Virus record (IMG/VR): IMGVR_UViG_3300031143_000003
Location: 19,287-83,286 of that record
Source of the DNA: a virus
Length of the DNA: 64,000 nt
Strand: one strand, 5' to 3'
Shown: positions 41,934-64,000 of the stretch, in pieces
How positions within the stretch are numbered: position 1 is the first letter of the stretch
Layout of the letters: every line of letters begins with the position of its first letter
Program-made: the position numbers and the translations under genes
The notes under the pieces: model-generated
Database searches by the model: none
What the model saw: the letters and a program-made list of their open reading frames with translations, nothing else
Told to the model about the DNA's origin: nothing

Positions 41934-41938
41934 TGACA

Positions 41939-44276: not shown

Positions 44277-44300
44277 ACAATCTGTTTTTCAAAATACAGA

Positions 44301-44552
44301 CTAATTTGACGGTAAGAATTCACCTGTATCTATGTCTATACTACCCTGTCCATACTTATTTTTCAATAGTTCTGCCAATTTACGTTCTTTCGATTGTATA
44401 TCGTCTACTGATACAAATAGTGATGCTTCGGTTTTGTCTAGTGAATGCCTGTTCAATTGAACTTGTCCTAGTTCATGTGATATTTCTGAATATTTTGTGC
44501 GTAGATCTTTTAGTTGTGTTAATTCTTCTGGTGTAAACTTGATTTTTTCCAA
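44301..44552 (-). CDS. Small coiled-coil protein (83 aa), TTG start
   Basis: An 83-residue highly charged helical protein (FTPEELTQLKDLRTKYSEI, QSKERKLAELLKNKYG) ending GEFLPSN. The start is TTG at 44552 with AAGGG about 10 bases upstream; there is no ATG. It lies between the gp15-like gene and the sheath gene, so a tail assembly role is possible. Family not recognised. Confidence 0.7.
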   Translation of the reverse strand: MEKIKFTPEELTQLKDLRTKYSEISHELGQVQLNRHSLDKTEASLFVSVDDIQSKERKLAELLKNKYGQGSIDIDTGEFLPSN

Positions 44553-44565
44553 ATTTTGGTTTCCC

Positions 44566-45845: not shown

Positions 45846-45849
45846 ATTG

Positions 45850-46983: not shown

Positions 46984-47008
46984 TCTAATCTCCTATTATC
47001 ATTACAAT

Positions 47009-47020
47009 TATAAATATCAA
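47009..47020 (-). promoter_or_regulatory. Late-type promoter-like motif before gp13
   Basis: Sense strand TTGATATTTATA, full consensus, 26 bases before the gp13-like start; it would launch transcription of the neck-tail genes. Confidence 0.6.
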
Positions 47021-47063
47021 ATACTTGACTGAATAGTTGGTTATTTCTAGCTGTGGATTGAAA

Positions 47064-49022: not shown

Positions 49023-49025
49023 GTT

Positions 49026-49187
49026 TTACTTTTTATCCATCTTAACTGGTTTAGCTGGAGCAGGTTGTGCATTGTATTGGTCTGCTACCTTGTTTAATAG
49101 TAATGATATTTGGGCTGATTCCGAACCCTTGATATTTAGTTCAGCGATTGCTTTATGTATAAGCACTAATTCTTCTTTTGTAAACAT
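49026..49187 (-). CDS. Small protein between fibre genes (53 aa)
   Basis: A 53-residue ORF: MFTKEELVLIHKAIAELN then a second helix (AQISLLLNKVADQYN) and a basic tail rich in Ala/Pro/Lys. AAGGAAC precedes the ATG. It resembles the 54-aa ORF just upstream (F-x-K-[ED]-E-L, I-A, G, S, K), so the two are probably paralogues. A role as fibre assembly factor is conceivable. It ends 3 bases before the next fibre gene starts. Confidence 0.65.
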   Translation of the reverse strand: MFTKEELVLIHKAIAELNIKGSESAQISLLLNKVADQYNAQPAPAKPVKMDKK

Positions 49188-49214
49188 AACCGTTCCTTGT
49201 TTTATTATTTATTG

Positions 49215-49239
49215 TACTAATATAATAAAAACATGTCAC
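49215..49239 (-). promoter_or_regulatory. Degenerate bipartite motif
   Basis: Sense strand GTGA, 11 bases, TATATTAG: two changes from the bipartite consensus. As at 30291, the upstream box lies in the 3' arm of a terminator hairpin. Confidence 0.35.
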
Positions 49240-49265
49240 ATAAAAAAATTATATGACATGTTTTT
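49227..49265 (-). terminator. Rho-independent terminator with 12-bp stem
   Basis: 49227-49238 and 49254-49265 are perfect inverted repeats (AAAAACATGTCA and its complement) with a 15-base loop, followed by U-rich RNA. It lies 14 bases after the stop of the 54-aa gene. Confidence 0.75.
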
Positions 49266-49279
49266 TCAATATATTATCA

Positions 49280-49444
49280 TTATTCAGATAGTTCAGTTTG
49301 TAATTTTACTGCTGTAGAATATACTACTTGAACGTCTTTGCCTTCGAACGTTGAATCAGCTATCAATTTCAATAGAAATTCTAATTCATCTTTATTAAAT
49401 TTCGTATTCTGTTTGGCCGATTTGACCTTTTCTAGTATTCCCAT
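49280..49444 (-). CDS. Small protein between fibre genes (54 aa)
   Basis: A 54-residue helical ORF, MGILEKVKSAKQNTKFNKDEL...LQTELSE. GGAG lies 6 bases before the ATG, inside the end of the previous fibre gene. Its middle (FNKDELEFLLKLIADSTFEG) matches the 53-aa ORF downstream. Probably an assembly or attachment factor; no family recognised. Followed by a strong terminator. Confidence 0.65.
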   Translation of the reverse strand: MGILEKVKSAKQNTKFNKDELEFLLKLIADSTFEGKDVQVVYSTAVKLQTELSE

Positions 49445-49454
49445 TATTGCTCCA

Positions 49455-51167
49455 TTATGCCCACATGAATATTTTACTTGTGCTTGTATCTATGTATGTT
49501 CGACCCGGTTGGTTAAACGTAGTTGGTTTTGTTCCAGTTGCATTGTTTGATGTTCGAGCAAATAGCTTGTTTCCAGCAGGCGATTGCATTGATATACCAG
49601 ATGATTGATTTGTATTGTACAGCTGTACTTGTGTAGGACCTTGGACTATTCCAGACGCTATATCGGAGCCGTTTCCTTGACCAATACTTATGAATCTATC
49701 GGTTGTATGCAATGATCCTAGATCTGTTGTAGTTGTTCCTCCATTTGTCTGCAATGTAGTAACGTTCATTGATATTAATTCTATGTCGTCGACTATGCCA
49801 ATTGTTGCATCGACTAGCGTTAGACCAAATCCGGCGCTAACCTGCACTGTATCTACATCGAAAGTTGTAAGCTCTTGTGCGCCTATTGACAATATGTTTA
49901 GTGCGGTACTTTGGTAAAAATTGTATGTCGTATTAGTTGTGTTAACAGGTGGAATGGTCAATAATGTTGCACCAACGTTTGCTGGATCATACATAGTTAA
50001 CGCTAAGTCAGACATTTTGATTTTTGCATTACGAGAGCCTACTGCTGCGGAAACGTCCTCTACCCATATTACGTCCGTTGCGCCTATATTTGCTTGGTTT
50101 TGTCGTAACGATATTAATTGTGGATTAACCTTTGCTGCATTGACACTGCCATCGAGTAGTTCGGATGTATCTACTGCATTGTCCGATAATCTATCTTCCG
50201 TTATTGCAAGTGGACTCATAGCTAGTCCATTGCCATTGGAGTATAATCCACCTGATGATGAAAGATTCACTTCGATATTTACTATAGCTGATCCGTCGTA
50301 TGAAAAATCAACTATACTGTTGTCAGATGGAGTTGGAGTTAATGTATTTAATGTTACGTCTATATTTGATAAATTAGTTCCATCACCGTTAATTGTTGCA
50401 GCTGTTATTGTGCCTGGCGATTCAACTGATATTGATCCAGTAAATTCATGTAAATTAGCTGTTGCTGTTCCCCATTGATGGCTACCAAGATGTGTAGTTA
50501 TATTTCCATCAGTTAACGATGTGCCGTTTATCGAAAACGATCCAGTAAAACTAACTGGATTGGCTAACGTGTTGTTTACACTCATACTATCAAACGTTGC
50601 AGATGTAGCAGCTATATTAACAGATGTTGATATATCATCTAGTGTTGATATTGTGCCAAATGTGCTACCAGTTATTGTACCACCGGATAGTGCACCAAGT
50701 TGGTTTATATCAAGTTGTGAATTTGACATTGACATAACTGGTATTGTTGCAGATGACATGCCTAATCCAGTATCTGCAGCGTATGTTTGGTTGCTATTTC
50801 CAAACGAAGAAGATATTACTATGTTATTTGATGCGTCTGATACTATTGATATGTCGCTTTCGCCAGACGTGTTTGTACCCTCTACAAACAGTGTATCTGG
50901 ATTGAAGCTGATTTTTGCACCTACGTGGCTTGAGTCAACATCATGGTTAGATGCAGTGAACGTATATAGCGTGTCATTTGATATTATAGATGATTGTAAT
51001 TTGTGCTGTATGTCACCTGCGTCAGTAACATATAGTACATTGCTACCTGTTGCAGATCCTGTCGCAACAGGAGCCGTTAGCTGTATACCGTTATAAACGG
51101 TTAGTGTTTTTAGATCCGCGTTTGAGTCTTCGACGATTATTTCGCGCCATTCTGGAGTTTGTGCCAT
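49455..51167 (-). CDS. Tail fibre/adhesin protein (570 aa)
   Basis: A 570-residue Ser/Thr/Asn-rich beta protein. The N-terminus MAQTPEWREIIVEDSNADLKTLTV parallels the attachment sequence of the two neighbouring fibres. The middle repeats motifs of the type 'FTGSISVESPGTITA' and 'LNTLTPTPSDNSI', as in trimeric beta-structured fibres. HQWGTATANLHEFTGS is nearly shared with the 562-aa fibre, so the two are paralogues. The C-terminal part (about 480-570) would carry receptor contacts. Confidence 0.8.
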   Translation of the reverse strand: MAQTPEWREIIVEDSNADLKTLTVYNGIQLTAPVATGSATGSNVLYVTDAGDIQHKLQSSIISNDTLYTFTASNHDVDSSHVGAKISFNPDTLFVEGTNTSGESDISIVSDASNNIVISSSFGNSNQTYAADTGLGMSSATIPVMSMSNSQLDINQLGALSGGTITGSTFGTISTLDDISTSVNIAATSATFDSMSVNNTLANPVSFTGSFSINGTSLTDGNITTHLGSHQWGTATANLHEFTGSISVESPGTITAATINGDGTNLSNIDVTLNTLTPTPSDNSIVDFSYDGSAIVNIEVNLSSSGGLYSNGNGLAMSPLAITEDRLSDNAVDTSELLDGSVNAAKVNPQLISLRQNQANIGATDVIWVEDVSAAVGSRNAKIKMSDLALTMYDPANVGATLLTIPPVNTTNTTYNFYQSTALNILSIGAQELTTFDVDTVQVSAGFGLTLVDATIGIVDDIELISMNVTTLQTNGGTTTTDLGSLHTTDRFISIGQGNGSDIASGIVQGPTQVQLYNTNQSSGISMQSPAGNKLFARTSNNATGTKPTTFNQPGRTYIDTSTSKIFMWA

Positions 51168-51195
51168 ATGTTTCCTAGTCTACTATTATATATTA

Positions 51196-52884
51196 TTATA
51201 CAAATATGAAAATATCGTTCGATGCATCTATTCGAATATTGCCAACGTGATTTCCTTTTGCTATACCAGCTGCAGTAGACGTTCCTTCTAATATTGATAC
51301 TAACGCATAATCAATAGCTGCTGGCTGCGATGTTCCAGACATATTATGCGCTACACCAAACCTTCCATCGTCTTGTCCATCTGTGTTCCAAACTAACGCA
51401 ACACCATCGGTTCCGGAACCATTTGCATTTGCTCCAAATATTATTCCGGTATTTTCTCCATCAGCAGCGTTTTCACCAATATTGATGAATTGGTCGTCAA
51501 CAGTTAATTCAGTTGAATTGATTGTAACAATTGTGTCAGCTGTTAGTGTGCCGGTTACAGTTAAATCTTGCAATGTAACTGCAGTTGGCATACTTACTGT
51601 TATTAAATTTGAGTTAGCAACCGATGCTACGTTAATTTGATTGGATGCACCCTGCAGTGTTACAATTGTTTCTACTGCTGTTCCGTTTTCTGATAAAACT
51701 ATTCCACCACCATTATTCACGTCCAAGGTGTATGTTGTATCTGTTCCAGTGTCTAATGTTATTGCTGTGTCCAAATATGTTGCCATAGATTGCATTGATA
51801 CACGGTTAAGCGCGTCACCAGCTGCATTTGAGATTAACATAACGTCAGAATTGTCTGCCGTCGATAGCAATACACCTGAATCAGATATTAATTGATCATC
51901 TAGCTTAGCATGTGTTACTGCGTCGGTAGCAATCTTTGCTGTTGTAACAGCGCCTGGAGAAATGTGCGATGCATATATACCATCAGTTGGAATTGCTAAA
52001 CCAGCAGATGTTTTTGATAATGAACCACCATTTAGCTTAACAGAAATTGTTCTTGCTGCGGATCCATCATATGTTCCACCGTCCGAGATAAGTATTCCAT
52101 CTCCATCCGTTAGATCTGATAAGTTTATATTGCTAGGATTTAGGTTTGTTATTCCTGCACCGTTACCATATAAATATGATGCAGATATGTCGTTAGTAAC
52201 AGATATACTTCCAGTAAATCCATGTATGTCTCCAGCATCTGTACCCCAATCTTGTGAGCCTGCTGATGTCATAACTGAGTTTTCAGTGAATGTTAGTGCA
52301 TTGAAGTTGAAATTACCAGATAGTATTGTGTCCGATGTTACGGTTAAGTTAGAAAACGTTGCGTCAGATGCGGAAACGGTTCCAGCTGTTGTTATGTTAC
52401 TATCAATATCTATTATACCGAATCCAGGTACAAGCGATCCAACTTCAAGATCACCAACTGCGTTTATGCCAGTCTGAGATGTGTCAACACTGAATGTCGC
52501 ATTTGAAAGTGTTAGTCCAGTACCAGCATCGTATGTTGTATCTACGTTATTCTCATCCGATGTTATTGTTATTGTATTTCCAGCACCATTAACGGTTATA
52601 CCAGTTCCACCTTCAAACGTAACGGTCTCTGTTCCTCCACTACCATCGTTTGTTAATACCATAGACGGATCAGGACCAGTGGCTATTGACATTGTATACG
52701 TTGTATCGGTTCCACCTAGCGTTGACTGGTCAATTGCTTGGATATTACCATCCATGTCAATAACCAATACACTAGCTTCACTGTCAACTGCTTGTGACGT
52801 TTGTCCTATATTTATTCCTGCGGAGGCTGTTACAGTATTTAATACTGCATCACTGCCACTGACTATTACTTTTTTCCACGCCAT
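51196..52884 (-). CDS. Tail fibre/adhesin protein (562 aa)
   Basis: A 562-residue paralogue of the 570-aa fibre: MAWKKVIVSGSDAVLNTVTA at the start, QDWGTDAGDIHGFTGSISV in the middle and a similar Gly/Asn/Thr-rich pattern throughout. Near 475-500 'ELTVDDQFINIGENA' and 'GVALVWNTDGQDDGRFG' form a domain often seen in marine phage fibres. Likely a receptor-binding or whisker-type protein. Confidence 0.8.
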   Translation of the reverse strand: MAWKKVIVSGSDAVLNTVTASAGINIGQTSQAVDSEASVLVIDMDGNIQAIDQSTLGGTDTTYTMSIATGPDPSMVLTNDGSGGTETVTFEGGTGITVNGAGNTITITSDENNVDTTYDAGTGLTLSNATFSVDTSQTGINAVGDLEVGSLVPGFGIIDIDSNITTAGTVSASDATFSNLTVTSDTILSGNFNFNALTFTENSVMTSAGSQDWGTDAGDIHGFTGSISVTNDISASYLYGNGAGITNLNPSNINLSDLTDGDGILISDGGTYDGSAARTISVKLNGGSLSKTSAGLAIPTDGIYASHISPGAVTTAKIATDAVTHAKLDDQLISDSGVLLSTADNSDVMLISNAAGDALNRVSMQSMATYLDTAITLDTGTDTTYTLDVNNGGGIVLSENGTAVETIVTLQGASNQINVASVANSNLITVSMPTAVTLQDLTVTGTLTADTIVTINSTELTVDDQFINIGENAADGENTGIIFGANANGSGTDGVALVWNTDGQDDGRFGVAHNMSGTSQPAAIDYALVSILEGTSTAAGIAKGNHVGNIRIDASNDIFIFV

Positions 52885-52911
52885 TTTGTTGTTTCCTTTA
52901 TATTATGTTAT

Positions 52912-54063
52912 TTAATATGTTTTTCCATTGAATTGACTTACCTGTTCTGGTAATATCGGTGTTGGCAAATAATATCCGGCTGTTCCAGATACTGGTTGAT
53001 ATATGCCGGGTGGTGCTGGATATATTAATCCAGCGTCAGTGAATACATGTGATCCAGATGATACTGTGTGTGTTCCATATTGTGGCGCAGCGTTTGTGCC
53101 ACTTGGCATATATATTGTAACAGCGTCGGTTGGGCCAGTTAGTAATATGTCACCACTAGCATATCTATTACAGCTTACCGATAAACTGGTCATTGATGAG
53201 CTAAATTGCATAATTCTGTGTGTTGGGAAAAAGTCATATATTGCATCCGGACCATCTCCAAATGCCTTCATCTTAATATGATGTGCAACGTAGCTATAAT
53301 CTACGCCAGTTAGTAATGATCCAGATCCAATAGGCACATTTAATAGTGATGCGGACGTTGGTGATCCACCGGATACAGTGTATATTTGATTAGCATCATA
53401 TTGTGCTGGTGAATATTCTGATCCAGTATAATAGTTCAAGTGAATTGATTTGCTTTCATAGTTAGCTGTGAATGCGATGGTTTCCATTGGCAATGTATGC
53501 TCAACTAATCCAGCGTATCCAGTTCGTGGACTACCATCAACTGAATATACCATGCTTGTGCAATTTGTGGAAGAGTTGACAACAAATATAGATTGTAAAT
53601 CCCCTATTATAGATGGGGATATTGTAAAGCTTGCTGTTGCAGCCACGGTTTCATCTTCATCTATTTGCATAATGACATCAGGCCAAGTAGTATTATCAAA
53701 GAATGATGTACTTATTTGCAAATATCCTGCTGCTGATATTGATGATGATCCAGTTGCCAACGATGCAGATACTAGATATTCATCCATACTGGATAAGAAG
53801 TCTGCATTTGGTATACCAGTATATGACAGACCACTGCCAGAATCATATATATAGAATCCTGCATCAAATGTGCCGTCTGTTGTCTTGGTTATAGTATCGC
53901 GATTGAACCACCCATTTGCATTTTTAGATGCTTTTGCACCATGTTGCAGTTTGCGTGGGAGTCTATGCTTAGGTCTAAACATTAGGTCATTGGATGAATC
54001 GGCAACAGAAGCTACCAACTCAGTCCATGATTTTATTTCCCATTTGTTTTTGTATTTTGCCAT
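52912..54063 (-). CDS. Virion-associated protein in fibre cluster (383 aa)
   Basis: A 383-residue protein. The first 60 residues are basic with KNKWEIKSWTELVASV and FRPKHRLPRKLQHGAKA; the rest is Ser/Thr/Tyr-rich beta structure. It ends with Pro/Gly/Tyr-rich sequence (PPGIYQPVSGTAGYYLPTP). No family recognised. Placed among fibres with a late-type motif 19 bases upstream and AAGGAAAAC before the ATG; probably a fibre or fibre connector. Confidence 0.72.
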   Translation of the reverse strand: MAKYKNKWEIKSWTELVASVADSSNDLMFRPKHRLPRKLQHGAKASKNANGWFNRDTITKTTDGTFDAGFYIYDSGSGLSYTGIPNADFLSSMDEYLVSASLATGSSSISAAGYLQISTSFFDNTTWPDVIMQIDEDETVAATASFTISPSIIGDLQSIFVVNSSTNCTSMVYSVDGSPRTGYAGLVEHTLPMETIAFTANYESKSIHLNYYTGSEYSPAQYDANQIYTVSGGSPTSASLLNVPIGSGSLLTGVDYSYVAHHIKMKAFGDGPDAIYDFFPTHRIMQFSSSMTSLSVSCNRYASGDILLTGPTDAVTIYMPSGTNAAPQYGTHTVSSGSHVFTDAGLIYPAPPGIYQPVSGTAGYYLPTPILPEQVSQFNGKTY

Positions 54064-54081
54064 TTGTTTTCCTTATTTGAT

Positions 54082-54093
54082 TATAAATATCAA
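54082..54093 (-). promoter_or_regulatory. Late-type promoter-like motif
   Basis: Sense strand TTGATATTTATA, 19 bases before the 383-aa fibre-cluster gene, overlapping the 3' end of the gene before it. Confidence 0.55.
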
Positions 54094-54707
54094 TATCCTA
54101 GGTAAAAATCACCAGATGCACTATAGAACATTCCACCTGCAACTACATCTGGTGTTTCAAAGAATTGCCCTAACATTGTTACACCTTGTAGATTTATCAC
54201 AAATCGTGCTTCTTCGTCGTCATTTAGTTTTACGGCGAATAGTGGAGATGTTCCGTCTCCGTTTATTTGCATTGTTGATGTTGACATTATTGGGGCGAAT
54301 AATGAACCTGATATTTGTAAATTAAATTGTGGGTCAACTATGTTGAGTCCAACATTTCCATTTTCAGCTGTGCCAAAGGGTGAGGATATTATTGTTCTTG
54401 GCGCTGATGATCCAATTGGAAATGAAATATTGTCAGTTATATCAACTACATTTGAATTGATAATATCTATGTTGACAGTGTTTACCTTCTCCGGCGATAT
54501 ATCAACGGACACATTAACATCAGTTGGCGCCAATATATTGTCAAACACCTGATCGACTACGATAGTTGATCCGTCTAGCACATTGCTATCCGATACGACT
54601 ATTACATTAGTTCCAAGCGTAATATCACTTATATCGAGGCTGTTTGCCGCAACATCTGATACTTCGATTGAATCATTGTTTTTCAGTATGTCTATAGAGT
54701 GCGCCAA
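54090..54707 (-). CDS. Fibre-cluster structural protein (205 aa), TTG start
   Basis: A 205-residue beta-rich protein. Residues 1-110 repeat short Asp/Ser/Val strands (SLDISDITLGTNVIVVSD), and 'ENGNVGLNIVDPQFNLQISG' near 115-135 resembles the GNVGIGTxxP motif of fibres. The start is TTG at 54707, 6 bases after GAGG and within one base of the previous stop, so it is translationally coupled. Probably a short fibre or connector. Confidence 0.72.
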   Translation of the reverse strand: MAHSIDILKNNDSIEVSDVAANSLDISDITLGTNVIVVSDSNVLDGSTIVVDQVFDNILAPTDVNVSVDISPEKVNTVNIDIINSNVVDITDNISFPIGSSAPRTIISSPFGTAENGNVGLNIVDPQFNLQISGSLFAPIMSTSTMQINGDGTSPLFAVKLNDDEEARFVINLQGVTMLGQFFETPDVVAGGMFYSASGDFYLGY

Positions 54708-54710
54708 GAG

Positions 54711-55079
54711 CTACCTCGTTACCTGCTTTGAAAGTCTAATAGATCCTTGTAGCAACCGCGTTACCGTTCCTTCATCATCTTCTAATTCGATGTCATATAC
54801 CGCAGTATCGAATATATAGTTTGTTGTTGCTGCAGCCTCAATTCGGAGTCCTATTGTTCCGCTTGCTGTAGTCTCTGGTGTTGCTAATATTGTTAGTCCA
54901 CCATCCGATGCTGTTGAAAATGTATCAATGGTTGATCCATCAGATATAGATTCACGTATATGCATTCGCACGTCGTATCCAGTTAGAGGAATAACGGTGT
55001 TCAGCTTATCCTTATATGTGAATTGCTTAACAACGGTTGTTCCCTGTTCTATTGTAAAATTATATATTCCAGCTGACAT
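54711..55079 (-). CDS. Small beta-rich virion protein (122 aa), BppU-like
   Basis: A 122-residue protein with an Ig/jelly-roll look: FTIEQGTTVVKQFTYKD, IPLTGYDVRMHIRESI, YDIELEDDEGTVTRLLQGSI. The order of strands with 'LTGYDVRMHIR' resembles the N-terminal domain of baseplate upper proteins and similar phage fibre adaptors; that is a weak structural guess. Start at 55079 has AGGAGAAC. A late-type motif lies 23 bases upstream. Confidence 0.68.
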   Translation of the reverse strand: MSAGIYNFTIEQGTTVVKQFTYKDKLNTVIPLTGYDVRMHIRESISDGSTIDTFSTASDGGLTILATPETTASGTIGLRIEAAATTNYIFDTAVYDIELEDDEGTVTRLLQGSIRLSKQVTR

Positions 55080-55101
55080 TAGTTCTCCTGATGTTGTTTA
55101 T

Positions 55102-55113
55102 TATAAGTATCAA
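55102..55113 (-). promoter_or_regulatory. Late-type promoter-like motif
   Basis: Sense strand TTGATACTTATA (C variant), 23 bases before the 122-aa virion gene; it would start the fibre operon. Confidence 0.55.
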
Positions 55114-55128
55114 CAGCCACGACCATAT

Positions 55129-55803
55129 TTATTTTTTATGGTTCTTGTCATAGTGTGGCAAGATTTCGTCTAATATTGGGTGACGGTGGTTTTCTAATAA
55201 CTGAATTAGATTTAGACGTTCAATTGTTGAAATTGATGATAGGAAATTTAAGCCGGTATCACTACGATGCTTCAAGTCAGTTTGATCTGTATCTCCACAG
55301 AATAGCATCTTTGATCCTATACCTATTCTTTGTAATATCATCAATGTTTGATCATGTTCCAAATTCTGACATTCATCAATTATTACAACTGAATTTGTGA
55401 ATGTTCTACCACGCATATATGATACTGGAACTATCTCAATTTGATCATTACTTATCAATTGGTCAATTCGTTCTCTACGTAGTAATTGATACATGTTACT
55501 ATATATAGGCGCAACCCAAGGACCCATTTTTTCTTCTAATTTTCCAGGTAGATAACCTAGATCCTCTTTTGAAATTGTTGGTCGAGTAATAACGATCCTA
55601 TTGACCTGTCGGTCTAATACCATTTGCAGTGCTATTTGGCATGCTAATAATGTTTTACCACTACCTGCTTTTCCCAATATTACGGCTATGTCCGATTCAA
55701 GAATCGTCGCCTTAGCTTTTTTCTGCTCTTCATTTAACGATAATAAAAATCTATAACCTTTTTTGTTATTCTTTTTACCAGTCTTTGTAAAATCACATGT
55801 CAT
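55129..55803 (-). CDS. phoH: PhoH-like P-loop ATPase
   Basis: A 224-residue PhoH-family ATPase. Walker A is GKAGSGKT (44-51), NRIVITRPT is the following strand, SVVIIDECQNLEHDQ is Walker B with the Gln-rich sensor, and FCGDTDQTDL is motif III. PhoH proteins resemble the ATPase part of superfamily 1 helicases and are frequent in marine phages; proposed roles include RNA metabolism and phosphate stress, neither proven. It sits between capsid and fibre genes and has a strong AAGGAG site. Confidence 0.93.
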   Translation of the reverse strand: MTCDFTKTGKKNNKKGYRFLLSLNEEQKKAKATILESDIAVILGKAGSGKTLLACQIALQMVLDRQVNRIVITRPTISKEDLGYLPGKLEEKMGPWVAPIYSNMYQLLRRERIDQLISNDQIEIVPVSYMRGRTFTNSVVIIDECQNLEHDQTLMILQRIGIGSKMLFCGDTDQTDLKHRSDTGLNFLSSISTIERLNLIQLLENHRHPILDEILPHYDKNHKK

Positions 55804-55823
55804 ATATTATCTCCTTTATTACC

Positions 55824-55833
55824 TATAAATATA
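55824..55833 (-). promoter_or_regulatory. Late-type-like motif before phoH
   Basis: Sense strand GTATATTTATA, core kept, 21 bases before phoH and directly after the capsid gene terminator. Confidence 0.45.
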
Positions 55834-55841
55834 CACTAGAC

Positions 55842-55869
55842 AAAAAAAGAGACCTATTCCTAGGTCTCT
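55842..55869 (-). terminator. Strong terminator after major capsid gene
   Basis: In the minus-strand RNA, AGAGACCTA pairs perfectly with TAGGTCTCT around a GGAA tetraloop, followed by seven U (55842-55848). It lies 32 bases after the gp23 stop. Confidence 0.92.
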
Positions 55870-55901
55870 CTTAATAAATATATAGTATTAGTATACTACA
55901 A

Positions 55902-57392
55902 TTACGCTGTTGTTACTGCGCCAATCGAACTTACGTTCGTAGCTGGAACAGTTACTACACCATAGTAATCCTTACGAACTACTTTCTTAGCGTAACGTGT
56001 CATTACACCTTTTCTTGGCGTAAAGTTGGTTGGATCATAAACCAGTGGAGTCATAATTAATGGAATATATGGCGCAAATACTGCTCCAGTTTCCAAGAAT
56101 TGATTACCTCTGAATCCAACTAAGATATCATCACCAGTCCAATACGGGTTTTTGTAAACCGTCCATCTGTTTCTAAGTGCACCAACTGCGGTTACACCCA
56201 TTGCAAATTTCTCTGATGTACCATCTGTATCAACTGAGTATCCTGGGATAGCTTCTAAATATGTTGCAACTTTCGGAGAACATACCATGAAGTTAGCACC
56301 ACCACGCATAGTTGATTGATGTATAACATTAGACATATTTTGTAGCGTTCCACCTAACGTAGCTAGTTGGTCAGATTGAACCATACCACCTGAGATAGTT
56401 GGGAATGTGTGTGTTGCCGAAAATGCAGCAGCACCTTTTAACATTGCTAATATTTCCATATCAATTTCCATTGAGATGTATTCAGAAAGCATTGATGTTA
56501 ATTCAGCTTCTGCATCAATTGAATGATACGCATTCAAATCTTGTGCAAATTCTGGAGACCATTTAACCTTTAGTTTACGTGTTTTCGCAACCAAAGCCTC
56601 TTGTTCTAGTTTAACTTCAATTTCTGGAATTTCAAGATCTACACCTTTACCATCCGCAGTTCCACCCATTTCAATTCCGACTTTGTCTTCAAAATCACCA
56701 CGTAAATGTGCTGTTGCAGTATTTGCGTAATAATGAATATTACCTATAGCTCCAGCTATCATACCATCAAACGTAGCAACGTTTCCTGTTGTAATTGATT
56801 TTACCGGATAATGTACAGAATTAGATACAAAATAGAATGATTTTGCTAAATCTAAATCTGCGTCAGCTAATGCGATAGTCGATGCAGATGATACTAATGT
56901 TACTTCAGCAGATACCTTTTTACCTAACGAGTAACCAGCAGATTCACCACGTACTTCACCATATAATGCAGAAGCAGTATTTGCAGCACCTTTTTTGTCA
57001 GAATTACCAAACAAAGAATCGTCTTTAGTATTCTTACCTTTAGTTGTTCCGTATTTGAAATCCATCCAGAAAACTAAACCAGAAGGCAAGTTCATTGGTT
57101 GTACAGATACAAATTCTTTTGCAGAAATTTCACCGAAAATTCTACGAACTAATGGTAATGCAACACCGTTCCAGTCTTCAGCTTGTCCACCAGCATTGAT
57201 ACTATTTGATTCTGAAATTAATTGTTTTGCTTGGTTTTCTAAAAGGATAGCAGTATTATGTTTGTTATAATCTGTATCGATTCCTTCTAGTAATCCAGTT
57301 GCTTCCCACTTTGTAACAAGACTCTTAGTCTCGTTTCTTTGTGCTCTAAATTGAGCTTGTGAGTCATTTAATAAGTCATTAATTTGTGACAT
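55902..57392 (-). CDS. 23: Major capsid protein gp23
   Basis: A 496-residue HK97-fold capsid protein (T4 gp23 has 521). Signatures are the N-terminal propeptide (about 1-61), DWNGVALPLVRRIFGEISAKEFVSVQPMN near 75 and RKLKVKWSPEFAQDLNAYH near 275. The sequence QLISE|S at 57-62 fits the I/L-x-E cleavage rule of the gp21 protease, close to the T4 cut after Glu65. AGGAGAAAAT precedes the ATG, and an efficient terminator follows, in line with very high late expression. Confidence 0.97.
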   Translation of the reverse strand: MSQINDLLNDSQAQFRAQRNETKSLVTKWEATGLLEGIDTDYNKHNTAILLENQAKQLISESNSINAGGQAEDWNGVALPLVRRIFGEISAKEFVSVQPMNLPSGLVFWMDFKYGTTKGKNTKDDSLFGNSDKKGAANTASALYGEVRGESAGYSLGKKVSAEVTLVSSASTIALADADLDLAKSFYFVSNSVHYPVKSITTGNVATFDGMIAGAIGNIHYYANTATAHLRGDFEDKVGIEMGGTADGKGVDLEIPEIEVKLEQEALVAKTRKLKVKWSPEFAQDLNAYHSIDAEAELTSMLSEYISMEIDMEILAMLKGAAAFSATHTFPTISGGMVQSDQLATLGGTLQNMSNVIHQSTMRGGANFMVCSPKVATYLEAIPGYSVDTDGTSEKFAMGVTAVGALRNRWTVYKNPYWTGDDILVGFRGNQFLETGAVFAPYIPLIMTPLVYDPTNFTPRKGVMTRYAKKVVRKDYYGVVTVPATNVSSIGAVTTA

Positions 57393-57419
57393 TATTTTCT
57401 CCTAATCTTCTAATTGTTT

Positions 57420-58235
57420 TTATTTTAAACCAGCCAGTCTTTGCATTCTAGATGAAAAGTGATTGGCTTCAACGATTACGTCCTTAGACGGTTTAGTTGA
57501 CTTTGTTGCTTTAGATGCGAATCCTTCAGCTACACGTTGTTTTTTTGGAGAATATCCAGTTAATGATTCAGCTAATGTTGAATACACTAATTTTACTTCG
57601 CGTACTGAGTTTGCTCTGTCGAACGTTTCAATTACATTCATCTTTTGAGATTCAGATAAATTGAACGATCTAAACAATTTGTTTGAGAACAACAGTTTTG
57701 AATTCAATAAATTAACTTCGTTGATTGTATCTTTCAAGGTTTGGATTGTCTTGTAAGCTTCCTCTAAGTCATTATTTTCTTCTACTGCTTCTTCTTCGTC
57801 TGCATCTTCTTGTAACGATTTGATGATTTCGTCTAAATCAATTTCTTCTTCTTCTTCAGCTTCAGGTTCTGCTGCTTCGTTTGTTTGACTTTCGTCTAAC
57901 TCTTCTTCAGCTTCTTCTTCGTCTTCCAATTCTTTGATGATTGATTCTAACTCTAATGCTTCTTCATCCTCATCTTCAACAGCCTCTACTACCTCATCTT
58001 CTGCAGATTCTTCGTCTTCATTATCTTCTTCAGCTTCTGCGTCTTCAACTATGTTGATTTCGTCAAGCTCTGAATCGTCTAAATCGTCTTCCATATCTTC
58101 AGCTATTTTTTGTGATAGCATAGATTGAAGTTTCGGTGTGAAAGCTTCCTCTAATGCAATTTTAGCGTTAGCTATCGCGGTTTCACGCACAGCTTTAGCG
58201 TCAGCAATTGCTTCTTTTAACAAGTCTTTTGACAT
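57420..58235 (-). CDS. 22: Prohead scaffold/core protein gp22
   Basis: About 271 residues. I chose the ATG at 58235 (MSKDLLKEAIADAK), which has AAGGAG 7 bases upstream, over a 17-codon extension. A helical N-terminus is followed by an extremely acidic stretch of Glu/Asp/Ala blocks (about 45-160), then a basic helical C-terminus. This composition and the position directly before gp23 identify the T4 gp22-type scaffold, which is digested by gp21 after prohead assembly. Confidence 0.9.
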   Translation of the reverse strand: MSKDLLKEAIADAKAVRETAIANAKIALEEAFTPKLQSMLSQKIAEDMEDDLDDSELDEINIVEDAEAEEDNEDEESAEDEVVEAVEDEDEEALELESIIKELEDEEEAEEELDESQTNEAAEPEAEEEEEIDLDEIIKSLQEDADEEEAVEENNDLEEAYKTIQTLKDTINEVNLLNSKLLFSNKLFRSFNLSESQKMNVIETFDRANSVREVKLVYSTLAESLTGYSPKKQRVAEGFASKATKSTKPSKDVIVEANHFSSRMQRLAGLK

Positions 58236-58348
58236 TGTTTTCTCCTTAAATATTTTGTTTGGAAATAGGGTTATTATGAACCCCAATAGAAATTATAATG
58301 TAGCAGGTGTATTATATATAAGATGATACATTTTTGTGCTATTCATTT

Positions 58349-58359
58349 TATAAGTATCA
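58349..58359 (-). promoter_or_regulatory. Late-type promoter-like motif upstream of gp22
   Basis: Sense strand TGATACTTATA (C variant), 114 bases before gp22, just after the bS21 terminator. A small hairpin (GGGTT/AACCC, 58268-58283) lies in the resulting leader. Confidence 0.5.
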
Positions 58360-58384
58360 TTGCCTTTCGCCAAAAACAACAATA

Positions 58385-58403
58385 GGGGGATGATTAGTCC
58401 CCC
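58385..58403 (-). terminator. Probable terminator after bS21 gene
   Basis: GGGGGA (58385-58390) and TCCCCC (58398-58403) are perfect complements with a 7-base loop. The following minus-strand RNA is U-rich (UAUUGUUGUUUUU) rather than a pure U run. Located 27 bases after the bS21 stop. Confidence 0.6.
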
Positions 58404-58429
58404 ATGTTAAATATAGTATGTATATATTA

Positions 58430-58765
58430 TTACATTGCCTGGCCGTCAACAATTGTTGTCCAGCATTCAGTGTCATTCTCAGTTTCTCTAAACTTTTTCA
58501 GCCTCATAAACTCAGCACGAACTGCGTCTTTTTTCTTTTTTCGTCTTGCAACAGCTGGTTTTGTATATTCCATTCTGTCCTTGAATTCAGTTAAGATTTC
58601 TGATTCTTTAACCTGTCTCTTGAATATTTTAAGAGCTTTTTCCAAATCTCCAGTAGTTGGTCCTGGTACATTTACTCCATTTGGAATTCCTGGAATAATG
58701 AAGTCAGTTTTTTTTCTACTTGTCTTGTTTGAATTTTCACGATAATTACTTTGGTACTTTGGCAT
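58430..58765 (-). CDS. rpsU: Ribosomal protein bS21 homologue
   Basis: A 111-residue protein whose residues 40-92 match small-subunit protein bS21: DLEKALKIFKRQVKESEIL, then FKDRMEYTKPAVARRKKKKDAVR. It has a 38-residue N-terminal extension (basic, then PGIPNGVNVPGP) and a C-terminal tail absent from bacterial bS21. bS21 sits near the anti-Shine-Dalgarno and helps mRNA binding; in Bacteroidota it takes part in hiding that sequence. The phage copy may exchange into host ribosomes and favour phage mRNAs; this is inference. AGGA precedes the ATG. Confidence 0.88.
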   Translation of the reverse strand: MPKYQSNYRENSNKTSRKKTDFIIPGIPNGVNVPGPTTGDLEKALKIFKRQVKESEILTEFKDRMEYTKPAVARRKKKKDAVRAEFMRLKKFRETENDTECWTTIVDGQAM

Positions 58766-58802
58766 GCTTGTCCTAGTTTAGGTGGTTATTATTTTATATT
58801 GT

Positions 58803-58825
58803 TAAATATAACAAAAAAAGATGAC
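58803..58825 (-). promoter_or_regulatory. Bipartite promoter-like motif before bS21
   Basis: Sense strand TATGTCA, 11 bases, TATATTTAACA, 38 bases before the bS21 start. The only full-match bipartite motif inside the virion gene region, suggesting bS21 is expressed with the replication genes. Confidence 0.6.
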
Positions 58826-58849
58826 ATAGAAAAATCTGTGCCATCTTTT
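58813..58849 (-). terminator. Terminator overlapping the bS21 promoter motif
   Basis: In minus-strand RNA, AAAAGAUGGCA (58849-58839) pairs with UGUCAUCUUUU (58826-58816) with one G-U pair and extra inner pairing, followed by U. Its 3' arm contains the GTCA box of the bipartite motif. Confidence 0.7.
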
Positions 58850-58886
58850 ATTATATAAATGTTGTTAATTATTTCAAGTAGACTGG

Positions 58887-59336
58887 TTAGTCTCCTATGT
58901 AGTTATCCAATACATCTTCAACAGCTTGCCAAGCTTTAGCAAATTTACGTGTTAATCCCTTGTCCTGCTTAGATATAATCTTATACATGTTACCCATTGC
59001 TGTGTGGTATTTGTTGTAGTTGGAATCAAATTCTGACGATTCATTTAACGTTGGTTCGGAGCTTTCCTTTAATTTTTTGCCCCAACCTTTGCCATATGTC
59101 TTAATCATTTCAGCATCGCTGTTCAGCTTAACCTTGCCATTCGATTCAACCTTATGCTTACCATTACCATCTAATCCTAAATGAACATCGCCATTTGGTA
59201 GTTTAGCCGGTCCCTTTTGTTTCCAATTGAACCCAGTTGATTTTATGGTGGATCCACTCTTTGGATCGCTTCCAGCAAAGTTGTCAGCTTCAGCTATTGT
59301 AGTCTTGATCAATTGTATTAATTCAGTTTTTTTCAT
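58887..59336 (-). CDS. Hypothetical protein (149 aa), possible capsid-internal
   Basis: A 149-residue soluble protein: MKKTELIQLIKTTIAEADN, a Gly/Lys/Asn-rich middle (GDVHLGLDGNGKHKV) and a helical C-terminus (KFAKAWQAVEDVLDNYIGD). LKESSE and LNESSE in the middle look like gp21 protease sites. It lies between gp21 and bS21 in the prohead region, so it may be packaged or cleaved in the head. Family unknown. Confidence 0.68.
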   Translation of the reverse strand: MKKTELIQLIKTTIAEADNFAGSDPKSGSTIKSTGFNWKQKGPAKLPNGDVHLGLDGNGKHKVESNGKVKLNSDAEMIKTYGKGWGKKLKESSEPTLNESSEFDSNYNKYHTAMGNMYKIISKQDKGLTRKFAKAWQAVEDVLDNYIGD

Positions 59337-59351
59337 AGCTAATTCCGTATA

Positions 59352-59993
59352 TTACTTTTTTCGATTTGGTAATGCGCATTTACATGTTAAATCGCATAGC
59401 ATATCGTTTATTATATTGTGAATGTTTACATATTTACTGGCTGGCATACTATTTGATACTGATTCATTTACACCAGCTGGATGCATAAATGCTCCATGTG
59501 TTGATGGATTGGATACGAAATCCCAACAAACTAATTCAAAATCGTCTTGTACTTCAACAGTTCCATTTTCTCTAATTTCTTTAACCGATCCTAACCCACG
59601 TGATGATATACCTAGCTTGATTCCAGCTTTAAGGAGTTCCTTCAATATGTTTCCAGATGGCGTTCCAAGTATTTCTACCTCTCCAACAACATCATCGCCT
59701 TTCCACCATACCTTTCTAATATTGTGCGATACATTAGATAGATTGACAACACTTGATTCTGGATGATCTAATTCACCTAATGCTCTATTTTCAGCGATAA
59801 ATGTATCTGAATACTTTGTCACCTCGCGCATTAATATTTCTCTAGGATAAACTCGACCGTTTTGGTTTTTTGCACCTGAACGTTGTAATACGCCAGTTAC
59901 TATTACTCTACCGTTATTATTTTTTTCTGATTCAGATATTAATTCTGGACTGATTTCGAATAGACTATAGTCTACTAAAAGCTGCTTTGACAT
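59352..59993 (-). CDS. 21: Prohead maturation protease gp21
   Basis: A 213-residue serine protease matching T4 gp21 (212). Opening GRVIVTGVLQRSGAKNQNGRVYPREIL is the family signature; the catalytic pair is His77 (GELDHPESS) and Ser130/131 (LGISSRGLG). It digests the scaffold and trims gp23 at I/L-x-E sites during head maturation. Its ATG overlaps the preceding stop, and the gene is followed by a 149-aa ORF after 15 bases. Confidence 0.95.
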   Translation of the reverse strand: MSKQLLVDYSLFEISPELISESEKNNNGRVIVTGVLQRSGAKNQNGRVYPREILMREVTKYSDTFIAENRALGELDHPESSVVNLSNVSHNIRKVWWKGDDVVGEVEILGTPSGNILKELLKAGIKLGISSRGLGSVKEIRENGTVEVQDDFELVCWDFVSNPSTHGAFMHPAGVNESVSNSMPASKYVNIHNIINDMLCDLTCKCALPNRKK

Positions 59994-60418
59994 TAAAATC
60001 TCCTAAGTTTTTCAGATATTCGTAACATTTTTTCTGATACTTTGCTAAGATTAGCTTTAGTGCTCTTCCAATATGTGTTTGAATCCACTCCAGCTTCTTG
60101 TTTTAGCTTTGAGTTTTGATTAACGATTTGTTCAATATAAAATAGTTTACTGTTGATCTCTTTAATTGATCTATTGACCTTTTGCTGTTGCGATGATGTA
60201 TCGTCACGCTTATAGTCTCTATATGTAGCTTCGCCTAAATGCATTTCCTTAGACAGTGCCATAAATGAAGATTCAGTTTTACGTTTTGTTTTTTTCTTAA
60301 ACGCCTTTGGAGTGTTGAATGCTTCTCCACCACCAGTTGCGTTTTCTTCGTCGATGTCCATGTCTTCGTTGCTCTGTGCATCTTCAAACATTTCGTCTAA
60401 ATCATCAGCTAATGACAT
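59993..60418 (-). CDS. Hypothetical prohead-region protein (141 aa)
   Basis: A 141-residue protein with an acidic N-terminus (DDLDEMFEDAQSNEDMDID), a basic patch (KKKTKRKTE) and a long C-terminal coiled coil (INSKLFYIEQIVNQNSKLK). It occupies the place of T4 genes 67/68 between portal and protease, and the composition fits a minor prohead core protein. It overlaps the 278-aa gene by 14 bases. Confidence 0.72.
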   Translation of the reverse strand: MSLADDLDEMFEDAQSNEDMDIDEENATGGGEAFNTPKAFKKKTKRKTESSFMALSKEMHLGEATYRDYKRDDTSSQQQKVNRSIKEINSKLFYIEQIVNQNSKLKQEAGVDSNTYWKSTKANLSKVSEKMLRISEKLRRF

Positions 60419-61241
60419 TGTTCAATTCTCCAATTAGATCGTAAGCGCGCATAACTGATATAATATACTTATCTTTTAGCGTCTTTACGTTTTTGATTTC
60501 AGTCAATTGAGCACATACTTCAGAAAGTTTAATCTGAACAATATCATCGTCTATCTTATTAGATAGTTTGCTTATTGTTCGGACTGTCTTATTTATTTCA
60601 ACATGTAAGTATTGCTTTAATGTGTCGGTATTCGATATATTGTTTATATATTCACGAAGTAATGACTTTTGATCGGTTGACAAATTACCGCCCCATTTCT
60701 CATTGAATTTCTCAATAAGTATTCTATATGAAAGCAGACGAATGTCTTTGTCTTGCTCCTGATATAGTGAGTGAGCTTCACTAATTTGTGTCTTGGATCT
60801 ATTTGTGATTGTTTCAACCAAGTTGTATCGATATCGTATCTTCTTAGATGGAGTCGTTCCCTCGAATAGACAGTATATTGATGCATTGTTTGCGTAATTT
60901 GTTATTTTTTGACTGAAGAATGCTTCGATTGAATAATGCTTTCGAATTTCCTTTATTAAATTATATTTCTGCCTGCGTATTGACGACATGTTTAGTCGAG
61001 ATTGTTCCAATATCACTGCGTCTATAAATTTATTTGCCTTTGTGTCGGTATTGAATTTTTCACGTAACAGCGTTTGATATAATCCCAACTCGCGTGTTAA
61101 CGATGTGTTTTTCTTGAAAAATTCCCTAATGACTCCGGTTGCAGGAGAATTATCAATTCCCTGTAAAGTGTCATTGGTCACTTGACGAACAAGCAATTCG
61201 AATATTATTCCGGTATTTTTGTATTTTGAATGTTTAGCCAT
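60405..61241 (-). CDS. Conserved hypothetical prohead-region protein (278 aa)
   Basis: A 278-residue, almost entirely helical basic protein beginning MAKHSKYKNTGIIFELLVRQVTND. A protein with this opening occurs at the same place, between portal and protease, in other marine T4-like phages as far as I recall. No catalytic motif seen. Probably head assembly. A late-type motif lies 26 bases upstream of the start. Confidence 0.75.
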   Translation of the reverse strand: MAKHSKYKNTGIIFELLVRQVTNDTLQGIDNSPATGVIREFFKKNTSLTRELGLYQTLLREKFNTDTKANKFIDAVILEQSRLNMSSIRRQKYNLIKEIRKHYSIEAFFSQKITNYANNASIYCLFEGTTPSKKIRYRYNLVETITNRSKTQISEAHSLYQEQDKDIRLLSYRILIEKFNEKWGGNLSTDQKSLLREYINNISNTDTLKQYLHVEINKTVRTISKLSNKIDDDIVQIKLSEVCAQLTEIKNVKTLKDKYIISVMRAYDLIGELNNVIS

Positions 61242-61266
61242 TTCTGTGTCCTAACACTTAGTTTAA

Positions 61267-61278
61267 TATAAATATCAA
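61267..61278 (-). promoter_or_regulatory. Late-type promoter-like motif
   Basis: Sense strand TTGATATTTATA, full consensus, 26 bases before the 278-aa head gene and after the portal stop. Confidence 0.55.
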
Positions 61279-61286
61279 TTTATAAA

Positions 61287-63179
61287 CTAAATTCCATCTT
61301 CAATTATGTTATTCTCATTCAATAATGATGATTTGTCAACTTTATGCATTGTTTTAAATAGGTTCTTAACCATTGCCTGCTTATCTTCACTGGTCATTCT
61401 TCTATTGTTTTTGTTATTTTTCAACTTACGGTTTCTACTTCTATCTTCCTTACCAATTGTGTCTCTACCTCTAGCTGCTTTTTGTGAACCATAGTGAACA
61501 GGTTCCTTTGGACGGCCTGCGCCTGGCTTATTTTCAGATACGTCATCTGCATCATCAGATTCTTTGTCATAGAAGTCAACTGGTTGGGCTGGTTCTTCTT
61601 CAGCATTCGAATCCTGATTATATGCCTGACCATCTTGATCAACTTGCTGAGACATTGCACCCTGTTGAAGTGCCCAGTCTGTTGCAACTGCTTCACCAGA
61701 TTCAGCTGGATCATTACCACTTTCCAATTCATTATGTCTAAACAATCGTTTTCTGTCTGATAATACTTTGGCTTGTTCTTTTGCAAGATCAGCGTCATTT
61801 AATCCAAATACATTTTCATATATCCAATCTTCAGATAGCATTTTTAGATCTTTAATGCTTGATGCCAAATTAACCTTGGAATCCCATAGTTCGAGTTTTT
61901 CTTGTTCGTGTATTGTTGATGCACTAGTCAATGATAAACTAAAGTCTACAAGTTCTTGTTCTGTGAATCCCTGTGAGTATAAATGAACCATTGCAATTTT
62001 AGTTAATTCTGATACAAATATGCGTTGTACACGTTCTATTGTTCTAGCAAATCTAACGTCTTGTGCAGCTAGTGTTGCCTTATCACCAACGCCTTCTTCG
62101 TATCCTAAAAATGCCTTAGGTATCTTTAATGCTGCGAACATTCTATGCTTAAGATATTCAATGTCATCTATACCAGTCCAATCCATTCCGCTCATTGTGT
62201 CTATTTCTGTTCCAGATTGACCACCTCTAACCGGTAAATAAACGTCCTCTAACATGTTTTGCATATTAAATTTCAAGTTGTATTGTCCAGTTTGTGGATC
62301 TAGATACGGAGTTTTCTTCATATTTTGCATAACTCTCTGCATATATGTGTCTACTTCAGCTGGTGGAATATTACCAATATCAATTTTATAAATACGTTTT
62401 TCTGGGGCTCTCATGATTCTGTGGATCATCATTGCATCTTCCATTAACGTTAATTGCTTAAATACTTTCCTAGCTGGTTCAACCATTGATTTACCGTATG
62501 GTAGGAAATTCATATCATTCAATAGTCTAAAGTGAGCTATTTCATAATTATTATATTCTTTCTTTGTTGCAGCAATACCACCAGCTAATTGTCCTGCCAT
62601 AGTTGGATCATGGGTGAATTTTACCTCTTCCTCATTATCTGGATTGGTACCTTCTTCTCTGAACATTTCATATGACGACAGTGGTGTAACATTGGTGACA
62701 CCTAATGTTTCAGTTATGTCCATCTTTAAATATAGATCACCATATTTGCACATGTTTCTTATCCATGGCCATATATTAAATTCAATGTTTAGTACATCAT
62801 AAAATAGATTGTTTAATACACGTTCAACCTTTTCATTACTAGATGTTATGGTAAGTACATCACCATATTCATTTTTCAATGTTGATTCGTCTGCGTATAC
62901 ATCCAATGCTGAAGATATAATTGAATCTTCATCCATTATTTCGTAGTCAGTATATAGGTTCAATCTTAGTGTGTGGAAATTGGCTTGTTGATTATATCCA
63001 ACTGCCTTTGATGACTGATATATTCTATTATATCTATCGATCATTCTATTTGTTGATAGCTTCGTGTTTGACTGTGCCTTGTGCACATCAGCAACTTTTA
63101 GTCCATTTTCGGTTTTCCGAATAATGGTACCAGTTGAAAATAATGTTGTTAGACGTCCAAAAAATGTCTTATCTGTCAT
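61287..63179 (-). CDS. 20: Portal protein gp20
   Basis: A 630-residue portal (T4 gp20 has 524), the dodecameric DNA gate at one capsid vertex. Family signatures are EIMDEDSIISSALDVYADESTLKN-type sequence near 80, IWPWIRNMCKYGDLYLKMDI near 145, RIMRAPEKRIYKIDIGN near 260 and GIDDIEYLKHRMFAALKIPKAFLGYEEG-type sequence near 345. The extra length is a charged, low-complexity C-terminal tail (about 490-630) ending in basic residues. It follows the terminase gene after 11 bases. Confidence 0.96.
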   Translation of the reverse strand: MTDKTFFGRLTTLFSTGTIIRKTENGLKVADVHKAQSNTKLSTNRMIDRYNRIYQSSKAVGYNQQANFHTLRLNLYTDYEIMDEDSIISSALDVYADESTLKNEYGDVLTITSSNEKVERVLNNLFYDVLNIEFNIWPWIRNMCKYGDLYLKMDITETLGVTNVTPLSSYEMFREEGTNPDNEEEVKFTHDPTMAGQLAGGIAATKKEYNNYEIAHFRLLNDMNFLPYGKSMVEPARKVFKQLTLMEDAMMIHRIMRAPEKRIYKIDIGNIPPAEVDTYMQRVMQNMKKTPYLDPQTGQYNLKFNMQNMLEDVYLPVRGGQSGTEIDTMSGMDWTGIDDIEYLKHRMFAALKIPKAFLGYEEGVGDKATLAAQDVRFARTIERVQRIFVSELTKIAMVHLYSQGFTEQELVDFSLSLTSASTIHEQEKLELWDSKVNLASSIKDLKMLSEDWIYENVFGLNDADLAKEQAKVLSDRKRLFRHNELESGNDPAESGEAVATDWALQQGAMSQQVDQDGQAYNQDSNAEEEPAQPVDFYDKESDDADDVSENKPGAGRPKEPVHYGSQKAARGRDTIGKEDRSRNRKLKNNKNNRRMTSEDKQAMVKNLFKTMHKVDKSSLLNENNIIEDGI

Positions 63180-63190
63180 TGTCTATTCCT

Positions 63191-64000
63191 TTATATTAAC
63201 CATGTTAAATCTTCTTCTGTATCGCCAGTCTGCATTTTCCATGGATTATTTGCTAAGGTGTTATTGCTATTATAAGCGCCTTGTGCCGTTCCCATGTTAT
63301 TCAATGCAAGTTTGTTCAATGCTAAACCTTCGCCGTATAACTTTAATGCGTGATCCCTAACATACATTCCAATTGAAAATGCCATTGTTAAATCGTCATT
63401 ATATCCACGTTGCGCTTCAGCTCTATGGCCTAACCATATGAATACAAACAGTTCCTCAATCAATCGCTTTGACCTTACAATACATGTTTTTTCTCTAAAA
63501 TAAATATCAAGTTTCGATATCAAAAGTGGTCGGGTCCTAGAAGATGTAGTAAATCCAGGTGTCATATTTTCCCTATTCTTGAGGTCATATCCTTTACTTA
63601 ACTGTGTTGCTGCATCGTGAACTCCTTCGTGCTTATACGTATAATATAAGTTACGATAATTTCTATCAACGGCTGGTTGAATGGCTGCCCATCCAATGTT
63701 TGCGTTCTCAATCACAAGTAGCGCTTCATTGTATTCAGTTGCAACATTTACAAGCATGTTACCAAACTCTTTTGTGTTGATCTGTCCTCGATATTCTGCA
63801 ACCTGAGTCATTGTAGATGTTTCCAATACATGGAACGTGGAGTAATCTGAGCTATCCCCTCGTGCAACATCGGCTACTACCATATATGTCTTATTGTAAT
63901 CCACATACTCCCAGATCCAATATTCTTGCTCCATCCCACGTTTTTCTATTGGTTCCTGCACCATGTTATCCATGTACCATTGTAATAGATCTCCTGGAAT
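63191..64000 (-). CDS. 17: Terminase large subunit gp17, C-terminal part
   Basis: The frame is open to the right edge (269 residues seen), so the N-terminal ATPase lies outside; the internal Met at 63973 is not the start. What is seen is the RNase H-like nuclease domain that cuts concatemers during packaging: MVVADVARGDSSDYSTFHV with the first catalytic Asp, ALLVIENANIGWAA with the Glu, and GYNDDLTMAFSIGMYV with the closing Asp. T4 order 17-20-21-22-23 is kept, although gp18/gp19 have moved. Confidence 0.95.
   Translation of the reverse strand: MPGDLLQWYMDNMVQEPIEKRGMEQEYWIWEYVDYNKTYMVVADVARGDSSDYSTFHVLETSTMTQVAEYRGQINTKEFGNMLVNVATEYNEALLVIENANIGWAAIQPAVDRNYRNLYYTYKHEGVHDAATQLSKGYDLKNRENMTPGFTTSSRTRPLLISKLDIYFREKTCIVRSKRLIEELFVFIWLGHRAEAQRGYNDDLTMAFSIGMYVRDHALKLYGEGLALNKLALNNMGTAQGAYNSNNTLANNPWKMQTGDTEEDLTWLI

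Follow-up and report, generated by a model that had tools for sequence, protein, structure and literature searches.

A T4-like phage genome was found to encode a ribosomal protein bS21 with a conserved N-terminal tail and a non-aromatic residue at the position of Tyr54 of Bacteroidia. Its gene is preceded by a promoter-like motif, the Shine-Dalgarno (SD) sites of the phage are real and conserved, the genome is divided into two zones of different SD usage, and tailed bS21 is associated with SD-rich surroundings among the relatives. These features suggest a genome that may be written for two kinds of ribosomes, namely the SD-blind ones of Bacteroidota and, subsequently, those in which the anti-SD has been released by the N-tailed bS21, a reading which we hold as tentative and at slightly less than even chances.

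The tailed bS21 gene and its surroundings

The window, i.e., the whole stretch of 64,000 nucleotides analysed, covers positions 19287-83286 of the 147,286-base linear virus record G000. The phage belongs to the T4-like myovirus type, with a gp20-type portal (PF07230), a gp21-type protease (PF03420) and a gp23-type capsid protein (PF07068) encoded in this order. The presence of a bS21 homologue with tails at both ends, originally proposed from the sequence alone, was confirmed: the Pfam profile Ribosomal_S21 (PF01165) matched residues 39-86 of the product with an E-value of 5.2e-13 (48.9 bits against a curated cut-off of 27, profile positions 7-55 of 55 covered), so that 38 residues at the N-terminus and 25 at the C-terminus lie beyond the domain. 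It was the single PF01165 match in the whole record. The features of the locus are as follows.

58430..58765, minus strand: phage bS21 gene, 111 aa, ATG start (ORF list and PF01165 match)
58508..58651, minus strand: bS21 core domain, residues 39-86 (Pfam match)
58655..58765, minus strand: N-tail, residues 1-37, with the motif FIIPGxPxGVxVPG common to the tailed family
58433..58495, minus strand: C-tail, residues 91-111, present only in the window phage's own subclade
58517..58519, minus strand: codon of Arg83, at the F. johnsoniae Tyr54 position (ungapped alignment)
58771..58774, minus strand: weak SD-like AGGA ahead of the bS21 start
58801..58834, minus strand: bipartite promoter-like motif of the bS21 gene, 34 nt, TTTTTTTATGTCA..TTATATTTA type (weight matrix)

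The AlphaFold2 model of the protein has a helical core (mean pLDDT 75.1, pTM 0.39) and gives no placement of the tails on the ribosome. On the same strand, its neighbor on one side is the gene located at 58887-59336, itself preceded by the prohead protease gene, and on the other side are the scaffold-position gene and gp23. Glycosyltransferase, DegT-type aminotransferase and nucleotide-sugar genes stand in a row elsewhere in the window (3835-13423, minus strand).

The bipartite motif that had been noticed ahead of bS21 was recovered at 36.2 bits with a weight matrix built from seven other sites, the bS21 site being outside the training set. Over the 147-kb record this matrix identified 20 sites, every one of them on the coding strand, compared with a mean of 0.33 in shuffled genomes. 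Since only 8 of the 20 (counted from the site positions) fall into the SD-poor zone described below, its function as a strictly early promoter was rejected. A TTATATT element 30-50 nt upstream of bS21 was present in the printed tailed relatives with Arg or Ala at position 54 and in L176 and L218-L220, and absent in L185, L222 and L224-L232. The Bacteroidota -7 motif TANNTTTG was rejected as a host marker because it occurred 64 times on the G000 coding strand against 56 in one shuffled copy.

The nearest isolates by capsid include Flavobacterium phage immuto (46% identity), which belongs to the same portal clade, Microcystis phage Mel-JY01 (45%) and Rhodothermus phage RM378 (40%), while a tblastn search of the phage collection found a similar bS21 only in Mel-JY01. 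The Bacteroidetes myophages of Chen 2022 (PMC9723584) resemble the window phage in having bS21 near the prohead protease and major capsid genes, but there the gene lies on the strand opposite to the structural genes and position 54 is aromatic in 61 of 61 phage bS21s, in contrast to the same strand and Arg here; the bS21 tails and the SD-rich neighbors of the window phage also set it apart. No SD analysis of phage genes was found in the consulted portions of that paper. The rpS21 of huge phages (Al-Shayeb 2020; PMC7162821) is likewise N-extended and was proposed as a ribosome-binding aid; the consulted portions of the paper make no link to SD zoning.

Shine-Dalgarno usage in the phage and its relatives

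A purpose-written caller, not Prodigal, set each gene start at the first ATG of a long ORF, and the records were handled in pieces of about 20 kb, by which ORFs spanning the piece borders were lost. An SD 4-mer at the right spacing preceded 60% of the 57 genes called in the window, compared with 14% of shuffled leaders and 12% of internal ATGs; for the whole record the values were 47% of 132 starts, 12% and 11%, respectively. The SD sites near the phage bS21 are thus genuine and well above the controls. In immuto, in contrast, the SD share (1% of 107 genes, 100 kb examined) was below that of its shuffled leaders (6%), and no bS21 was annotated or found in the same 100 kb. Strong sites were located ahead of gp23, the scaffold-position gene, phoH and the protease gene. 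The sequence-only reading, which had emphasized strong SD sites on many phage genes, therefore holds overall and for gp23 and phoH. The bS21 gene itself has only a weak AGGA, with a duplex of about -3.9 kcal/mol.

57399..57403, minus strand: AGGAG before gp23
58245..58250, minus strand: AAGGAG before the scaffold-position gene
55811..55816, minus strand: AAGGAG before phoH (PhoH by Pfam)
1..64000, no strand: the whole window, in the SD-rich part of the record
Record 131764 to end, and 1 to 13827 (outside the window): SD-poor zone of G000

Zoning was examined by scanning for a contiguous SD-poor block with 500 permutations of gene order, using genes of at least 60 aa on the majority strand for G000 and the other records, and both strands for T4, HTVC008M and Mel-JY01. 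Within the block of G000, SDs preceded 5 of 53 genes, compared with 63 of 104 in the rest of the record (permutation p ≤ 0.002). Similar blocks were present in G002 (5/34 vs 72/113, p ≤ 0.002), G004 (5/33 vs 72/115, p ≤ 0.002), G007 (6/33 vs 75/130, p = 0.014), G003 (0/13 vs 26/43, p = 0.010) and in G082 from the second tailed subclade, here called tailed-Y (0/21 vs 52/106, p ≤ 0.002). With genes of at least 100 aa only, the block persisted in five of the six records, G082 then being left with four block genes. The permutation values were relied on because Fisher tests on chosen blocks are biased by the choice; near-identical phages in the set are not independent. No significant block was found in the fragments G011 (p = 0.74) and G081 (p = 0.072), and none in T4, HTVC008M (140 of 147 kb) and Mel-JY01 (p = 0.71, 0.96 and 0.46, respectively). 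The latter two resemble the window phage in being T4-like and possessing both bS21 and SDs, but their bS21 is without the window-type N-tail.

Most phages with untailed, aromatic-54 bS21 were SD-poor throughout (G085, 6/87 genes on the majority strand and 4/131 on both strands; G086, 3/145; G013, 2/74), as was immuto (4/132), unlike the window phage. The untailed-L54 cousins, of which two come from a Flavobacteriales MAG bin, were SD-rich and had an SD ahead of bS21, and the portions of them that were examined contained no SD-poor zone; the records G088 and G089 of this group gave no significant block. Their bS21 genes (L021, L028, L031 and related loci, with bS21 near 10001) lack an ATG where the start would be expected.

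Four of the ten proteins scanned from the SD-poor zone of G000 scored above the cut-off, namely ThyX, an ATP-dependent DNA ligase, an AAA ATPase and an SPFH protein, and two tRNAs are located inside the zone. The DNA polymerase, the structural genes and GroEL, which was identified in the record, are encoded outside it. The SD-poor zone may be expressed early, before the rest. The leader ATTGTTCCGGTTAAA is common to three genes of the zone (record 134638, 135946 and 143668; loci L049 and L050).

SD conservation was followed in start-aligned reciprocal best hits outside the SD-poor blocks. Between G000 and G002, with 54% protein identity and leaders identical at 8.5 of 20 positions, SDs were present in both members of 27 out of 46 pairs; G000 and G082 had them in common in 12 of 21 pairs, and G000 and immuto in none of 16, with 11 in G000 alone. 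Since the sites were kept in orthologues with 44-55% protein identity whose leaders are only about 40% identical, they look selected; by this comparison, SDs persist in the tailed phages and were lost in immuto of the same clade. Both observations speak against the SDs of the late genes being relics of an SD-using ancestor in a phage of a Bacteroidota host, with an SD-less zone acquired recently and a bS21 that completes ribosomes or competes. We regard such a history as improbable, although the SD-richness of Mel-JY01 and the untailed-L54 cousins would fit it, as would the small number of SD-poor-block genes that have orthologues between tailed phages.

The N-tail, position 54 and the host

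The viral-contig scan returned 42 loci, including L004 and L005 with an identical protein and 13 (L006-L018) with the same N- and C-tails. A scan with Bacteroidota bS21 led to L176 and L185, which served as queries for further scans; these gave 15 loci, encoding 11 different proteins that carry the N-tail alone. Across 20 aligned tailed proteins, two N-tail residues, G26 and V33, did not vary. The window protein matched 186 of 296 genomes from the phylum of G016, the Flavobacteriales MAG NAT55; no full-length tailed bS21 was present among the matches listed, a few of which start near residues 5-15 of the window bS21 with 27-42% identity. The tail state needs two changes on the portal tree and four on the capsid tree, so the tail may or may not have arisen once; sequences no longer than 300 aa were dropped (2 of 38 portals, 4 of 41 capsids), and among 52 phages 14 were without a portal match, 9 without a protease match and 11 without a capsid match. 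A related capsid was also seen in LR756508, a 484-kb phage with an untailed Met-54 bS21 (L302:14977-15216).

In Bacteroidia, bS21 is known to hold the anti-SD, and the aromatic residue at position 54, called uniquely conserved in this class as Tyr54, helps to hide it by stacking on the 16S 3' tail; in F. johnsoniae, Y54A and a C-terminal deletion raise translation of strong-SD reporters 3- to 4-fold (McNutt et al.; PMC9976891). In a sample from the order of G016, PF01165 was matched in 58 of 60 genomes, and all 30 loci fetched had Y, H or F at this position. The window protein lacks such an aromatic residue, having Arg83; Arg or Ala occupies the position in its own subclade, Tyr or Phe in the second tailed one. 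As the tailed-Y phages keep the aromatic residue and are nevertheless SD-rich, the loss of Tyr54 cannot by itself serve as a general switch and was rejected in that role; the huge phage LR756508, with Met at position 54 (by eye) in an untailed bS21 and mostly SD-less neighbors, also opposes it. What unites every phage with an SD-poor zone in this analysis is the N-tail, not the loss of Tyr54.

The genes around bS21 followed the same division. SDs were present in 130 of 200 neighbors (summed) at ten loci with tailed Arg/Ala bS21, the window included, and in 96 of 155 at 15 loci with N-tail-only bS21, near-copies included, compared with 15 of 218 (summed) at 16 deduplicated loci with untailed aromatic-54 bS21. 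N-tailed bS21 is, hence, associated with SD-rich neighbors in two subclades. The leader of bS21 itself was without SD in 20 of 21 distinct tailed proteins (binomial test against 55%, 1.4e-6, ignoring relatedness), the exception being the window gene with its weak AGGA. The tailed bS21 might still be a passenger marker, with another phage factor altering the ribosome or with SD-dependent initiation proceeding without a change in bS21: the tailed groups are close kin, so that the tail and the use of SDs may be linked by common history alone, and the tailed-Y phages retain Tyr54 or Phe. Considering the established role of bS21 in holding the anti-SD in Bacteroidia (PMC9976891) and the tracking of SD use by the tail in two subclades, we find this very improbable.

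The host is probably a member of the Bacteroidota, as suggested by the kinship with immuto, by SD avoidance in the SD-poor zone similar to that in immuto and the aromatic-54 phages, by the Tyr54 core of the tailed-Y bS21, by Flavobacteriales-labelled capsid cousins (4 of 7 contigs, two of these from one MAG) and by tmRNA tags starting with G. The MAG bins contain only cousins of the window phage and are unreliable, G018 having three bS21s, none with Tyr54. The MAG NAT55 (G016; L087, L090, C59, C78) includes several such phage contigs and has its only PF01165 matches on two of them. Spacers were rejected as host evidence, as only 9 of 395 genomes gave any match, all partial (66-89% identity) and none spacer-like. 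Three sister phages carry a permuted tmRNA (RF04321; L058:12993-13287, L065:12474-12768, L083:11784-12078), a form described from Alphaproteobacteria, some Gammaproteobacteria and Cyanobacteria (PMC9004378), whereas 21 of 21 Flavobacteriales tmRNA loci were in one piece; this and the lack of a spacer match in the 395 genomes argue against a Bacteroidota host. The phage tags GKQVEYAMAA and GTQVEMAMAA, on the other hand, start with G and end with AMAA similarly to Flavobacteriales tags, 21 of 21 of which start with G. An Rfam DUF805b RNA match (40.5 bits, L058:12113-12148) lies close to the phage tmRNA.

The permuted tmRNAs would fit a host that uses SDs normally, e.g., a marine proteobacterium or cyanobacterium, in which case bS21 would supplement the ribosomes, Arg54 would be ordinary outside Bacteroidia and the SD-poor zone would have another cause. 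The richness of the late genes in SDs, which T4 and HTVC008M also show, and the close relative Mel-JY01, recorded from Microcystis and possessing bS21 and SDs, point in the same direction. Such a host is nevertheless unlikely in our judgment, given that T4, HTVC008M and Mel-JY01 have no SD-poor zone, that the tailed-Y core is of the Bacteroidia type with Tyr54, that the tmRNA tags resemble those of Flavobacteriales and that a Flavobacterium phage belongs to the same portal clade.

A putative switch of ribosomes toward Shine-Dalgarno sites

In the preferred model, a T4-like phage that most likely infects a member of the Bacteroidota would make a tailed bS21, which would replace the host bS21 on 30S subunits and let the hidden anti-SD pair with mRNA. 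One gene zone and, in nearly all relatives, bS21 itself would have A-rich, SD-less leaders readable by the SD-blind host ribosomes, probably being expressed first, while the structural and other remaining genes would have SD sites preferred by the altered ribosomes with the phage bS21. For this model as a whole, from the tail through the bS21 swap and anti-SD release to the SD-less zone followed by SD-led genes, we consider the chances to be even.

Several observations stand against it: the AGGA in the window bS21 leader and the absence of a significant block in G011 and G081; the untailed-L54 cousins, which are SD-rich with SD-led bS21; the aromatic residue kept by the second tailed subclade; and the permuted tmRNAs of the sister phages. 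A freed anti-SD would, moreover, favor the host's own strong-SD rpsU as well.

That the phage protein takes the place of host bS21 and turns ribosomes toward phage mRNAs, as put forward in the sequence-only reading, had already been hypothesized: the swap and redirection were proposed by Chen 2022 (PMC9723584), and replacement of the host protein is discussed by McNutt 2023 (PMC9976891). The freeing of the anti-SD, its remaining part, gains indirect support from the loss of Tyr54, the two zones, the conserved SDs and the SD-less bS21 leaders, although the Tyr54 loss is no general switch. The autoregulation described for F. johnsoniae (McNutt 2023; PMC9976891) is similar in that the state of bS21 sets SD reading, but there host bS21 is lost or mutated and rpsU is the one target, whereas here a viral bS21 may act on many targets. 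A title and abstract search, mostly outside subscription journals, found no literature linking tailed phage bS21 with SD usage or zoning. New in this work are Arg83 at the Tyr54 position, the contiguous SD-poor zone, the association of the N-tail with SD-rich neighbors and SD-less bS21 leaders, and the persistence of SDs in diverged orthologues. The interpretation is plausible and partly published, now with comparative support.

bS21 is by far the commonest phage-encoded ribosomal protein according to McNutt et al. (PMC9976891), and the contrast between zones without and with SDs, linked to a tailed bS21, makes its purpose in phages directly testable. If true, the model would describe natural, virus-made specialized ribosomes and a way to use SDs in hosts which ignore them, that is, a viral, protein-driven switch in how mRNAs are selected, with tailed bS21 as its marker in two or more subclades of T4-like phages.
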